From assembly GCF_037975245.1 (NCBI RefSeq), contig NC_092579.1:15324178-15388177 (forward strand): 64,000 bases of DNA, read 5' to 3'. Numbering within the stretch: the stretch's first letter is position 1; every line of letters starts with the position of its first letter. The notes below the pieces were generated by a model, which was not told where the DNA came from, ran no database searches, and saw nothing but the letters and a program-made list of their open reading frames with translations. The translations under genes were made by a program, and so were the position numbers. Below are positions 49,182-61,425 of this stretch, piece after piece. The stretch is from Apostichopus japonicus. Lineage: Eukaryota > Echinodermata > Holothuroidea > Aspidochirotida > Stichopodidae.

Positions 49182-52100
49182 ATGATCAAGTATCTTGTTC
49201 TCTTCGCCGTCTTGGCTACTGGATTTGCTCGGGTGAGTAAAACTTTAATCAAAAGTCAACCTTAAATTATTATTATTTTTTAAATTGACAATGACGTTTT
49301 GTTAATTTAACAGTTTTTTCATTTAAATAGAACGACTGTTTAGCATTTAAGTTGTCAAGTTTAAATGAGCACTAGTACACTACAGTTCACTGAAATAGCA
49401 TAGATAGCATAGATGTAAATAGCTGTTTTCCGAAAGACGCTTCAGCGAACCAGGGGCGAAATGACCGGTAAATATAAGACTCCTAAATTGAGAAATCGGA
49501 AATTTGAGAGTTATTTTTAAATTTGAACTTTGTGGCCGGGTCGGAGAGACATGTTACTGGACGGTGACAGGAAAGGTAACATGTTAGGGTTGGAGGAGGC
49601 GATGAGTGGTGGTGATGGTGAGTTGCGGCTGGCTCAACGGTTGGTTCTGGACTGTAGCAATTTGGAGGCTAGACGGACTTCATATCCCTATGACGGTGTA
49701 GCTGTTTCTGGAAAAAGTTGGTTGGATGGTATCTGTTCTGGATATACGTTAAGTTTCTGCAGGTAGCTGAGGTCCCCAAATTTCTAGGCAGGTGAGGGGA
49801 GTCGTATCCAGGACGTAGGGTGTCTGTTTTAGTTGATTCTTGGTGAACTGGTGTAGGTGATGTGCATGGGCGGCGATCATGGGGGGGACGGGGGGGACAT
49901 GTCCCCCCCAATATTTTAGGTGGGGGGATATAGTATCTAATATCCCCCCCAATATTTGGTGGCATAGTTTTTTTTTACCCATATGTATTGTATTTTTTTA
50001 TGATATCGCTAGTAATTTCAAAATAGAAAATGCTTAGATGCAACTTACAAGGCCTGGGAAGTGCCATTTCCATTGATCTGGGAGGCATTTTCGGCCAAAA
50101 TTTTCTTTTGCGCTTCGCGCCAACTTATGGTTATGCTACGCTTAGAAAGTCTGGGTACAGGCTTTGCCCCTCCCTTGGCAAATTCCTCGCAAGTCGCCTG
50201 TCTAACCGTGTCACAATTGGTTACTATATATGACCGAAAGTAGTTTTTCCTCTTTTTTTTTCTCGAAATGAATAGCTAGACGGACCGCATCCGTAATGAA
50301 ATTTGGTTTGCCTCTTGTGTATGAGTGTAAGTACGTACAATCATATATATGATCCACATCGATATGGGTTCACTGGGTTTCCATTTGGCCTGTTTCCTAC
50401 AAGATTTCTAACCGCAGGTGCGTAGCCGCAAGGGAGGGGGGCGAAGGGTGGAGACCGCCCCTCCCCCTCAAGCATATTTTTTTTTGTATTTTCTATGATA
50501 TCGAAGTTTTATAGTAGCCGTTATAAGAGATTTTAATATTTGTACACCAATAATTTAACTGTATCTGAACTTTCGAAAATTCCTTGACCAACATTCTACA
50601 TCATACTTCCCTCTACTCGTTCAATTTTGACCGGTCTGTTAGGGGTTGAGGTTTTTTTTCTATATTGGTTGTACATAGATGAAATTTTGTGCAACATTAT
50701 GGGTATGTTTTGAAGTGAATTTATTATTCAAATTCTGAACAAATAATGGGCTTAAAACCTTGAAAAGTGGGGCTGACGGGTATTGTGGGGCGTTACGTAG
50801 AATTACCTACAAAAGCAATGATTCACAGGAGAGGCAATGAGGTCGAACATGATGTGTGACTGGTCACAATCTTGAAAGGGTTATGAATGAAAAAAAAAAA
50901 ACTATTAGGAAAAACTTGGTTCTCAGGCAAAAGTGTACATCTGGTTGGTCATTTTCAGGCCCGAGAAGTGCCATTTCCGGTGATCTGAGGGGCTATCAAA
51001 ACCAGAAATTTTCTTGTACGCTGCGCGCCAACCAATGGTGGCGCTCCGCTTTGATAGTAATTCGCCTGCACCCAAGCAAATGTCCCCCCCAATATTTGAA
51101 ACAGATCGCCGCCCCTGGTGATGTGTAGGAACGGCGACTTTGTCGAGGAATTAGTTGTCTGTAAGTTGATTTAGTCTCTCGTTCCACTGATGGAATGTTG
51201 GCAATGGTTGTTACTGTTTCACAGTTTGCATCTTGTGGCAGATGGTAGGCGATTCTGCATGCTCTGCGTTGTGTGGCTTCAAGTTGTTCTGCATTACATG
51301 TGTTGTGGGTGGAAATGTGGGCTAAGGCTGGTGCCGCAAATTCGAAGTGTGGTCTGATCATCATCTTGTTAATCTTCAAAGTGGTGCTTGGTGATGCTAG
51401 TGGGTGCTCTTCAGTTCCGGCAATACTGAAAAGTAGTCTGACACGTTGTTTGACCTTTCTATGGTTGAGACGATGTTGGTACCCAAGTGTGAGCCGCTTG
51501 TCGATGTGAATTCCTAAGAATCTTACTTGGTTGGTGAATGGGATGATGGTGTTATTAAGTGTGAGATATGGTTGTCTTCCTCTAATTCTGTTTCGATTGG
51601 CGACGTAGAGAAATCTGTGATTCACTGAAATTAGATTTGATTTATTTTCACCTATTTAGAGTGACGTAATCGAAGATCATATATGCAAATTCACTATTGT
51701 TTATACATAAGTCTGTTAAATTCCTGTCCGTTCGGCCGACCCATTTCATTCTTTCCCCATATTTTTTTTCAATTAAATATTAAATAGATTTAAGGGTAAC
51801 GAACGGCTAAAGTTGCTACATTGCTAGAAAGGGCAACAGAAAATAACTACAAAATTTTCAATATTTTGCTTTGTTACATTTTTGAACATTCATTTCGAAG
51901 CTAGCGCTGTAACCATCAACAATCCAGAGCCGTATATAGCGTTCACTATCAACGGCTCTACGATGAGCTTCTTAAGATATCGCCAGCAGTCTATTCATGG
52001 GGTCGGTGTTCACATCCCTTATATATGGTTTGAAAATGTGTAGGCTAAATTTCCCTTTAAAAGTTACCCTTTAAAGTAAAGTTGATTTCAGTATGTTTCG

Positions 52101-61100: not shown

Positions 61101-61425
61101 TAAGAAATGTTTTGGGTTGTTTTTTTTGTTCATGGAAATGCACTTTCTACCGAATTTATCCTAATGTCAAAGCCTATATCTGTGAACATAATGTGAACTA
61201 CCGTATATGATACGTGGTGCAATACATATGCATGTTTATGTAATGAACAGGCTCATCTCTGCATTAGCAGTTCAGTTAAGACATCTGTATACAACAGCTG
61301 ATTAACTGATCGATTGATTTTGTCCACAGAAAACCGCTATGACTGTCAACGGGCAGATCACCGAAGATTCCTTCATTAATACCTTGGAGACCACTGGAGA
61401 TCTGTTGTCCAGGAATTCGAAGTAA
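49182..61425 (+). CDS. Secreted two-unit EF-hand protein, diverged copy 3 (EFS3)
   Basis: Exons: 49182-49232, 53065-53079, 53584-53640, 56734-56775, 58279-58371, 59069-59098, 59337-59393, 60386-60427, 61330-61425; 160 residues, all phase 0, no frame damage. Signal peptide [17 protein letters not shown]. Calcium loops [12 protein letters not shown] (28-39) and [12 protein letters not shown] (102-113) keep all liganding positions. Exon 5 is three codons longer and differs from EFS1 at about half its residues. Exon 9 has two extra codons before the stop. Hand count against EFS1, leaving out exon 5: about 46 non-silent and 5 silent substitutions, while the sequence flanking most exons differs by only a few percent. 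Kept loops and altered surfaces suggest a retained fold with a changed partner. Large introns hold many insertions. Confidence 0.85.
49397..51620 (-). mobile_element. Truncated non-LTR LINE in EFS3 intron 1
   Basis: The insert is flanked by TTCACTGAAAT at 49386-49396 and 51621-51631; EFS1 and EFS2 have a single similar site. The minus-strand frame at 51625-50996 reads [20 protein letters not shown] and [14 protein letters not shown], typical of the C-terminal half of a Jockey/CR1-clade reverse transcriptase. The 3' end at 49397 is an ATAGC/ATAGATG short repeat. It is 5'-truncated and split by a hAT-type element. Confidence 0.85.
49865..51117. mobile_element. Non-autonomous hAT-type element nested in the LINE
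   Basis: Ends are CATGGGCGGCGATC and GATCGCCGCCCCTG (inverted, one mismatch). The flanking 8-bp duplication is GTGATGTG at 49857-49864 and 51118-51125. The 1253-base interior has no transposase. It contains two related ~150-base blocks (AAGTGCCATTTCC near 50060 and 50965), and a G/C-rich patch near 50415-50475 that may be a further small insertion. Confidence 0.9.
53813..53990 (+). mobile_element. U2-snRNA-headed SINE in EFS3 intron 3
   Basis: The head CCTCGGCCTTTTGGCTAAGA, followed by TCATGCGCAGTATCCGTTCC, is closer to U2 snRNA than the EFS1 copy. The body shares GTTTGGTTTTCGTGCCCAGG and GGGTGAC with it. It sits in a different intron, so this is a separate insertion. It is followed directly by a TA/TG microsatellite. 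Confidence 0.75.
53996..54118 (+). repeat. (AT)n(GT)n microsatellite
   Basis: A long AT run then GT-rich run immediately 3' of the U2-headed SINE. Long minus-strand TH/YI repeat frames are artefacts. Confidence 0.95.
54184..54315 (-). other. Possible captured host exon (Cys-rich CGNH module)
   Basis: On the minus strand an acceptor (TTTTTATAG) and a donor (GTAGTTG) bound a 132-base segment. It encodes [25 protein letters not shown] and [10 protein letters not shown]. Six cysteines with a CGNH start resemble small extracellular modules. It is antisense to EFS3 and next to a Penelope fragment, so it may be an exon copied from elsewhere. I do not recognise the parent gene. Confidence 0.3.
54316..55729 (+). 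mobile_element. Penelope-like element fragment in EFS3 intron 3
   Basis: A frame to 54818 reads [20 protein letters not shown] and [16 protein letters not shown], the linker between reverse transcriptase and endonuclease. Downstream reading shows [20 protein letters not shown] and PFGLN, typical of the GIY-YIG C terminus. A hammerhead ribozyme follows at 55730. It is decayed, lacks the reverse transcriptase, and is sense to EFS3. Confidence 0.75.
55730..55768 (+). ncRNA. Minimal type I hammerhead ribozyme (Penelope-associated)
   Basis: The order is TGCA, CTGAAGA, AGAGC-loop-GCTC, GAAA, GC, TC, TGCA. This supplies the conserved core CTGANGA and GAAA, a 4-bp stem II, a tiny stem III, a TC cleavage position and a 4-bp stem I from the two TGCA words. 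Penelope-like elements are known to carry such minimal hammerheads, and the strand matches the adjacent Penelope fragment. Confidence 0.65.
55842..56080. repeat. Long AT microsatellite
   Basis: Near-continuous AT repeats with ATAAAT and ATACAT interruptions. The following 56085-56215 is an imperfect ~20-base repeat of TTTGGTATATAGCCTA type. Confidence 0.95.
56405..56562 (+). repeat. 10-bp tandem array in EFS3 intron 3
   Basis: Repeats of TTATTGTACA or TTATTGTACT. EFS1 has one to two units at this place (near 31012), so the array expanded from resident intron sequence in EFS3 only. Confidence 0.9.
56880..57320 (-). mobile_element. Penelope-like 3' end fragment in EFS3 intron 4
   Basis: 56995-57290 matches the minus-strand Penelope fragment at 45430-45760 (GACAAGTAACAGTAACAGAA and following). 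EFS1 and EFS2 lack it. It includes a hammerhead-like motif at 56962-57000. Decayed. Confidence 0.65.
56962..57000 (-). ncRNA. Hammerhead-like motif (Penelope-associated)
   Basis: The minus strand reads CCTATGAAGA, then the hairpin GATCC-TGCTA-GGATC, then GAAACGTCAGG. Stem I (CCT/AGG), a perfect 5-bp stem II, GAAA and the GTC cleavage site are present; the core is slightly diverged from consensus. Confidence 0.5.
58003..58245 (+). mobile_element. tRNA-derived SINE in EFS3 intron 4
   Basis: The A box (TTAGCTCAGTGGTTAACGC at 58011) and B box (GGTTCGAGTCA at 58056) have tRNA spacing. The anticodon arm does not form a normal 5-bp stem with a 7-base loop. A ~150-base non-tRNA body follows, then an ATACATACATAG-type tail. 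EFS1 and EFS2 lack it. Confidence 0.75.
58381..58444. repeat. AT microsatellite in EFS3 intron 5
   Basis: AT run starting ten bases after the exon 5 donor; absent from EFS1 and EFS2. Confidence 0.95.
58709..58774 (+). other. Possible alternative terminal exon of EFS3
   Basis: After an acceptor-like TTCATCATAG, an in-frame (phase 0) stretch reads [20 protein letters not shown], one more Leu, then stop. Spliced after exon 5 it would end the protein after the first EF-hand unit. It lies in sequence unique to EFS3. Speculative. Confidence 0.2.
60089..60161. repeat. AT microsatellite in EFS3 intron 7
   Basis: AT run of ~73 bases preceded by an AC run. It is part of a ~700-base insertion (about 59462-60172) absent from EFS1; the rest of that insertion has no recognisable class. 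Confidence 0.95.
60451..60853. mobile_element. Foldback-type MITE in EFS3 intron 8
   Basis: Perfect 10-base inverted ends TATTATACAA and TTGTATAATA. Two ~75-base inverted arms inside (60687-60766 and 60777-60850) pair around a ~10-base spacer rich in CG. EFS1 and EFS2 have continuous sequence here. A TA target duplication fits, pointing to a Tc1/mariner-type relative. Confidence 0.7.

Follow-up and report, generated by a model that had tools for sequence, protein, structure and literature searches.

Exon divergence in excess of intron divergence in a tandem family of secreted EF-hand genes of Apostichopus japonicus

Background

Snake PLA2 venom genes have accelerated exons, with introns that stay similar. 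Here we analyze a related pattern in three adjacent genes, named EFS1, EFS2 and EFS3, which encode small secreted EF-hand proteins and lie in a 64-kb stretch of DNA from the sea cucumber Apostichopus japonicus (the window; all positions are given in its coordinates). For the viperid three-finger toxins segment switching (ASSET) has been proposed: exon segments diverge while introns stay similar, according to the available part of the source (PMC2474615). In the primate L/M opsins both the silent and the non-silent divergence of exons exceed that of introns, and the non-silent divergence is not significantly above the silent one (accessible text of PMC3213168).

As to the protein, a close described system is Orpin, a group of secreted EF-hand proteins of echinoderms and hemichordates. 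The member from the same species, Aj-Orpin, is described as a protein of 164 aa whose signal is cleaved at SEA-CS and whose two EF loops, at 117-128 and 147-158, form an adjacent pair (both statements from the available portion of PMC9501386). No Orpin-named protein is found among the matches of our EFS protein searches, and the accessible part of an H. glaberrima genome preprint (PMC13228809) makes no mention of Orpin.

Below we show that the coding exons of EFS3 differ from those of the other two copies more than the surrounding DNA does. An adaptive episode that followed the tandem duplication is the probable cause of this excess over neutral divergence.

Exon and intron divergence

The three genes are intact and arranged in tandem. 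Each has nine phase-0 exons with AG/GT at the introns, and the encoded proteins count 155 (EFS1), 155 (EFS2) and 160 (EFS3) residues. Successive gene starts are separated by 10.6 and 11.0 kb; the units align in blocks with about 81-96% identity.

A three-way alignment of the genes contains 6041 columns with all three present, in which differences unique to EFS3 were counted. Flanks were taken as 100 nucleotides (nt) per side, minus columns at most 4 from a gap and low-complexity runs. Differences unique to EFS3 occupy 69 of 468 exon columns against 75 of 1155 filtered flank columns (p=2.9e-7). When every aligned flank column is used, the exons (14.7%) still exceed the flanks (8.4%, 120/1430, p=8.5e-5). 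Leaving out exon 5, the exons show 46/384 against 73/1135 in filtered flanks (p=5.5e-4) and 117/1394 in unfiltered flanks (p=0.022). If the exon mask is slid along the 6041 columns, the observed density is reached in 0.5% of the shifts. Differences unique to EFS1 plus those unique to EFS2 show no exon excess (10 in exons, 27 in filtered flanks, p=1.0). The coding excess over introns had been claimed from reading the letters alone and is borne out here; silent sites look like introns.

The genes and the parts of EFS3 are as follows.

27607..33811, + strand: EFS1 gene, 155 aa; exons 27607-27657, 29695-29709, 30393-30449, 31185-31226, 31899-31982, 32289-32318, 32600-32656, 33181-33222, 33722-33811
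38170..43783, + strand: EFS2 gene, 155 aa; exons 38170-38220, 40114-40128, 40795-40851, 41186-41227, 41905-41988, 42295-42324, 42602-42658, 43181-43222, 43694-43783
49182..61425, + strand: EFS3 coding sequence, nine exons, 160 residues
49182..49232, + strand: EFS3 exon 1, start codon and signal peptide; 3 EFS3-unique changes in 51 nt (2 non-silent, 1 silent)
53065..53079, + strand: EFS3 exon 2, 15-nt microexon (YTPKN), missing from annotated isoform P0001
53584..53640, + strand: EFS3 exon 3, EF-hand loop 1 with position 3 changed from D to N, Pfam EF-hand_1 above cut-off; changes 5/57, flanks 22/175
56734..56775, + strand: EFS3 exon 4, downstream of loop 1; 8 EFS3-unique changes in 42 nt, flanks 7/166, p=0.003
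58279..58371, + strand: EFS3 exon 5, the most diverged exon; 23/84 EFS3-unique changes by nucleotide alignment or 29 by hand-gapped codon alignment, plus 9 inserted nt; alignment uncertain
58372..59068, + strand: EFS3 intron 5; 5/257 filtered columns EFS3-unique (1.9%), next to exon 5 with 27% and exon 6 with 20%
59069..59098, + strand: EFS3 exon 6; 6 EFS3-unique changes in 30 nt, 4/4 changed codons alter the amino acid; flanks 2/163, p=2e-4
59337..59393, + strand: EFS3 exon 7, EF-hand loop 2, side-chain ligands 1, 3, 5, 9 and 12 kept; 9 EFS3-unique changes in 57 nt, 6/6 changed codons non-silent; flanks 12/123, p=0.18
60386..60427, + strand: EFS3 exon 8; 4 EFS3-unique changes in 42 nt, 4/4 non-silent; flanks 7/97, p=0.44
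61330..61425, + strand: EFS3 exon 9 with the stop codon; 9 EFS3-unique changes in 90 nt, 6/6 changed codons non-silent, plus 6 inserted nt; flanks 2/112, p=0.012
53080..58278, + strand: EFS3 introns 2-4 (exons 3 and 4 between); 10-13% EFS3-unique, 131/1172 intron columns, the older-looking part of the gene
58372..61329, + strand: EFS3 introns 5-8 (exons 6-8 between); 2-7% EFS3-unique, 44/1039 intron columns, the younger-looking part

Taken singly, exons 4, 6 and 9 exceed their own filtered flanks. Exon 5 has just 20 alignable flank columns, against which the difference is 23/84 versus 2/20 (p=0.08); with unfiltered flanks (3/36) p is 0.015. The excess is concentrated in the 3' half: pooled exons 5-9 show 51/303 against 25/515 in their flanks (p=2e-8), and pooled exons 2-4 show 15/114 against 43/489 (p=0.11).

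The original prediction had placed EFS3 correctly at 49182 to 61425, where we find nine phase-0 exons and eight AG/GT introns, and its exon counts are reproduced. Against EFS1 and EFS2, respectively, exon 4 differs at 9/42 and 8/42, exon 6 at 6/30 and 7/30, exon 7 at 10/57 and 9/57, and exon 9 at 12/90 and 11/90 plus the 6-nt insertion. The near-identical 3' untranslated region (UTR) is also seen, with 1 difference from EFS1 in its first 149 nt. The flanks of exon 4, put at 2-3%, are indeed that close in comparison with EFS2 (2-4% within 50 nt) but not with EFS1 (8-10%). The contrast at exon 7, drawn from 1 difference in 39 upstream bases, is lost over 100 nt. Likewise, an acceleration across the whole gene is not supported, as exons 1-3, 7 and 8 are not above their flanks.

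The contrast could in principle be produced by misalignment, by assembly error, or by relaxed constraint on a dying copy. Low-complexity introns do align poorly, and the use of unfiltered flanks shrinks the contrast as given above. On the other hand, exons 1-4 and 6-8 have the same length in all three genes, and EFS3 without exon 2 is identical to an annotated protein on a 32.4-Mb contig (which may be the same assembly). The reading frame and splice sites of EFS3 are intact, its insertions are in-frame and an annotated product exists. Moreover, a ratio of non-silent to silent substitution rates (dN/dS) above 1 is unattainable through relaxed constraint. We therefore give hardly any credence to artefact or decay.

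Tests of selection

Codon tests were based on three sequences without an outgroup, with 156 codons compared. Since the codon counts use a hand-placed gap in exon 5, runs were repeated without this exon. Just 2 of the 53 changed codons are silent (P=5e-4 with each codon as one event); without exon 5 this is 2/35 (P=0.012). Whole-gene dN/dS according to Nei-Gojobori amounts to 1.76 for EFS3-EFS1 and 2.27 for EFS3-EFS2, against 0.39 for EFS1-EFS2. Without exon 5 the same method counts 43.3 non-silent and 7.7 silent changes relative to EFS1 (45.3 and 5.7 relative to EFS2), close to the roughly 46 and 5 first reported.

A three-branch codon model gives a dN/dS of 3.14 on the branch between EFS3 and EFS1/2 (p=0.0075 against 1). 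The estimate rises to 4.04 (p=0.003) if only the mature exons 2-9 are used, and leaving out exon 5 gives 3.73 (p=0.011). For exons 6-9 it runs to the upper bound (p=4e-4), because 20/20 changed codons there alter the amino acid. In a parametric bootstrap on all exons, 0/400 null replicates (one-sided) and 2/400 (two-sided) reach the observed value; for exons 2-9 without 5, 1/300 does (one-sided). The EFS1 and EFS2 tips show a dN/dS of 0.39, which differs from the long branch (p=0.012; mature exons p=0.0025), with 6/369 non-silent sites changed versus 98/3350 intron sites (p=0.18). Because of this low value the pattern is that of an episode on one branch. The continuing diversifying selection of the venom kind that had been proposed is not supported by these tips.

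Introns offer a second yardstick. Here the intron divergence was fixed as the neutral rate, with kappa fixed at 1.6, to obtain dN/dS (omega). For all exons omega is 3.28 (confidence interval 2.68-4.15) and without exon 5 it is 2.38 (1.73-3.23). Exons 6-9 combined with introns 5-8 yield 4.59 (3.03-6.42). The neutral length of the long branch in the codon model (0.214/3=7.1% per site) matches the intron value (225/3350=6.7%).

Several results weigh against an adaptive episode. Exon 7 and also exons 1, 2, 3 and 8 (p=0.44-0.85) are not above their own flanks, and exon 5 weighs heavily in the totals although it cannot be aligned with certainty (23 or 29 changes depending on the method). A single omega over all branches (1.86-2.17, p=0.06-0.13) is non-significant in 4/4 exon sets, with p=0.077 for the value of 1.86; the dN/dS test suggested originally is thus significant on the EFS3-vs-EFS1/2 branch and not for all branches together. 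Single-hit codons without exon 5 include 2/25 silent ones (P=0.073), and Fisher tests for an excess of non-silent change without exon 5 give 0.18 against EFS1 and 0.045 against EFS2. Exons 2-4 with introns 2-4 show an omega of 1.30 (0.72-2.22). Taking introns 2-4 as the true age lowers omega to 1.88 (1.52-2.36) for all exons and 1.37 (0.98-1.84) without exon 5. The long branch cannot be polarized between EFS3 and the EFS1/2 stem, given three sequences and no outgroup; from the internal repeats, 5 of 23 changes appear EFS3-derived and 4 EFS1/2-derived, with 14 uninformative. EFS3 can therefore not be singled out as the copy that changed, as the original prediction had it. Finally, changes are clumped: 20/53 changed codons carry two or three changes against 12% of the changed intron triplets (p=7e-5; 10/35 without exon 5, p=0.017). 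The clumping in exons is nearly equal out of frame (38, 34 and 34% of changed triplets with two or three changes; introns 12%). Clumping of this kind, in frame and out, means that the counts may be raised by clustered mutation.

Mutations that hit several nucleotides at once can look like selection. As the sole cause they are made less plausible by an excess at the level of events: against 51 non-silent events on 369 sites, the roughly 3159 intron nt contain 180 changed triplets (p=7e-8), and without exon 5 there are 33 events on 299 sites (p=5e-4). The clumping itself is stronger in exons than in introns. Gene conversion biased to G/C is ruled out by the exon spectrum, with 21 changes from weak (A/T) to strong (G/C) bases versus 25 from strong to weak.

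Probable exchange between the copies

The introns of EFS3 are far from uniform. From intron 1 to 8 the EFS3-unique divergence is 4.4, 9.8, 10.1, 12.9, 1.9, 6.0, 6.9 and 3.3% (chi2 67, p=5e-12). Introns 2-4 together reach 11.2% against 4.2% for introns 5-8 (Fisher p=7.5e-10), and the step between introns 4 and 5 is located at exon 5. A range of 1.9-12.9% is unlikely to result from one duplication with one clock, which makes exchange between the copies likely. The very low intron divergence in the 3' half probably owes something to earlier gene conversion, which probably also sharpened the exon-intron contrast. Divergence between EFS1 and EFS2 is patchy as well (introns 4-6 0.4-1.7%, intron 1 5.5%) and points to recent exchange between these two.

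Because the patchiness makes exchange likely, an explanation of the kind offered for opsins has to be weighed. The duplication would be old, the introns would have been repeatedly homogenized by conversion, and selection would have removed conversions of the functionally diverged exons. The patchy introns agree with this, and so does the omega of 1.37 without exon 5 if introns 2-4 represent the age. Gibbon L/M opsins with an equal exon-over-intron pattern are explained in this way in the available part of PMC3213168, and a review, as far as its accessible text goes, takes the pattern to indicate selected divergence in the presence of conversion (PMC3924837). With introns 2-4 as age, however, omega for all exons is still 1.88. 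In addition, opsin silent divergence is also above that of introns (PMC3213168, same part), whereas exons 6-9 of EFS3 have 1.17 silent changes on 47 sites (2.5%) against 4.2% in introns 5-8 and 15.9% at non-silent sites, which speaks weakly against shielding. The probability of at most one silent change in exons 6-9 is 0.035 if introns 2-4 (11%) give the age and 0.052 at 10%, on few sites. Whole-gene silent divergence is 8.2% versus 6.7% in introns, again on few sites. Overall, we consider shielding of old exons somewhat unlikely. Since the silent sites of exons 6-9 are no more diverged than the introns, the replacements there most likely postdate the resetting. Changed codons follow one another at intervals of a few bases, and conversion is unlikely to have reset silent sites while sparing the changes next to them.

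A further alternative is that EFS3 exons or segments, for instance exon 5, were copied from a diverged paralogue through cDNA-templated conversion or segment switching. Divergence indeed climbs at several exon borders, the middle of exon 5 is nearly replaced, and the clumping of changes (20/53 codons) would fit as well. Such a donor would import silent changes too, but outside exon 5 these amount to 4.67 on 81.5 sites (5.7%), which is intron-like. Nor was a donor found, either as an exon in the window or as a protein in the sequence and profile searches; the original prediction had thought of conversion only in this form, as a replacement of exons. No additional EFS exon copies were found in the window, with tblastn matches outside the genes at E 0.4 or weaker. 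DNA matches of EFS exons elsewhere in it are flank homologies or simple repeats; the lone 20-nt exact match lies in A-rich intron sequence. We regard exon replacement as improbable.

The protein and its relatives

EFS proteins start with a short hydrophobic signal ending in AFA-G or GFA-R, followed by a cysteine-free mature part with an isoelectric point of 4.2-4.3. Exon pairs 3/7 (57 nt) and 4/8 (42 nt) correspond in length and product, which shows the protein to consist of two duplicated halves, each carrying one canonical calcium loop. The products of exons 2-4 and 6-8 are alike at 12/38 residues in EFS1. By eye, a degenerate second loop seems to follow each canonical loop, in exons 5 and 9. 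The canonical EF loops lie at about residues 28-39 and 99-110, some 71 residues apart in separate repeats. Loop 1 is recognized by Pfam EF-hand_1 in EFS3 (29 bits, cut-off 25.4) and EF-hand_6 in EFS1 (25.7, cut-off 25); the Pfam EF-hand models give no match at loop 2, which is recognized from its ligand pattern alone. All calcium ligands had been reported as kept. This is true for all but one, as position 3 of loop 1 is Asp in EFS1 and EFS2 and Asn in EFS3; the other loop ligands and the splice sites are retained. Asn is an accepted calcium ligand.

Protein P0001, an uncharacterized Apostichopus japonicus protein (isoform X2), equals EFS3 minus the 15-nt exon 2, letter for letter. The skipping of exon 2 in this isoform deletes YTPKN right after the signal peptide. 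P0002 contains the full 155 residues on a contig of 978 nt and shows EFS1 and EFS2 differences in a mosaic. As the genomic copies span about 6 kb, this contig is presumably a spliced transcript, and its mosaic nature suggests that EFS1/2-like genes are transcribed and variable, by alleles or exchange. Sequence searches of 5.8 billion proteins and a profile search gave no relatives beyond P0001 and P0002. The best PDB chain for EFS3 is calerythrin at E=0.2. An AlphaFold2 model has a mean pLDDT (the model's own confidence score) of 41 on a two-row alignment; it is unusable for surface mapping, offers no support for the surface position originally proposed for the changed residues, and its helix pattern is no evidence. 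A search of a paper library identified no paper that could be linked to this gene.

The surrounding sequence

Following EFS3, positions 62741-63509 repeat DNA at 35545-36242, located after EFS1 and before the EFS2 unit. As EFS1/EFS2 intergenic DNA recurs here, a further copy may lie past the end of the window. Some 370 nt of 3' UTR and following DNA that EFS1 and EFS3 possess are absent from EFS2 (43784-43815 versus 33844-34215), so that the EFS2 transcript probably ends differently. An inverted repeat of 1001 nt with 99.6% identity is present at 1-1001 and 2472-3472; between its arms, an open reading frame at 1768-2406 (minus strand) has a weak C2H2 zinc-finger match below cut-off. At 45863-46267 (minus strand) and 56998-57319 there is a weak GIY-YIG match, also below cut-off, near the stretch 45441-45777, which recurs in EFS3 intron 4 at about 85%; this is possibly a fragment of a Penelope-like element.

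Discussion

Summarizing, the adaptive episode can be pictured as follows. EFS1-3 are tandem duplicates of a small secreted two-repeat protein, in which each repeat has one EF loop and, judged by eye, a degenerate second one. Once the EFS3 and EFS1/2 lineages had split, selection probably fixed amino-acid replacements at about three times the neutral rate, an estimate from three sequences and no outgroup. The sequence shows that the splice sites, the signal peptide and the calcium-binding scaffold were retained. Patchy introns suggest that gene conversion or unequal exchange reset neutral divergence in places, chiefly in the 3' half. Exons 6-9 probably gained their replacements after this resetting, as their silent sites are as little diverged as introns (with low power). 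As to the selective cause, one copy most likely gained a new role or binding partner, which makes neofunctionalization of the secreted calcium-binding protein a likelier origin of the episode than an ongoing arms race.

A more specific reading is put forward only tentatively. The family, seen so far only in this sea cucumber, with no relatives detected in the database that was searched and apparently outside Orpin, may include one duplicate that strong episodic positive selection has remodelled, with a dN/dS of about 3 over the whole gene and of 4-5 in the second repeat. Conversion would have acted at the same time, so that diverged non-silent sites would now stand like islands in converted DNA that is otherwise young.

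To our knowledge, few proteins other than those of venom, gamete recognition and immunity have a dN/dS above 1 over the whole gene when its own introns serve as the neutral yardstick. The present case is an uncharacterized secreted calcium-binding protein from an echinoderm that is farmed and regenerates. With three adjacent copies, selection and conversion as sources of the exon excess are directly testable using a few related genomes, and EFS3 (or the EFS1/2 ancestor) is flagged as a candidate for a new extracellular role. If conversion and episodic selection did act together, this would be a non-venom case in which neofunctionalization under conversion is datable against neutral introns of the same gene.

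Compared to known systems, EFS resembles Aj-Orpin in species, small size, acidity, secretion and the possession of two EF loops; it differs from the published description, in its available part, by the wide spacing of its loops and by its cleavage sites, which are not SEA-CS (PMC9501386). With EF-hand proteins in general it shares the canonical loop 1, and the PDB match is just E=0.2. Like the primate L/M opsins the genes are tandem copies with exon over intron divergence and patchy introns, but unlike in the opsins, where silent sites are above introns, the silent sites of EFS are not clearly raised. Like the venom families (snake PLA2 and viperid three-finger toxins) EFS is secreted and duplicated, with the scaffold kept and exons diverging more than introns. 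Unlike these, it has its acceleration on one branch only, with a slow EFS1-EFS2 pair and three copies seen, and there is no evidence of a venom or toxin function. EFS is therefore best read as an instance of an already known kind, the adaptive episode after duplication, in a new gene.

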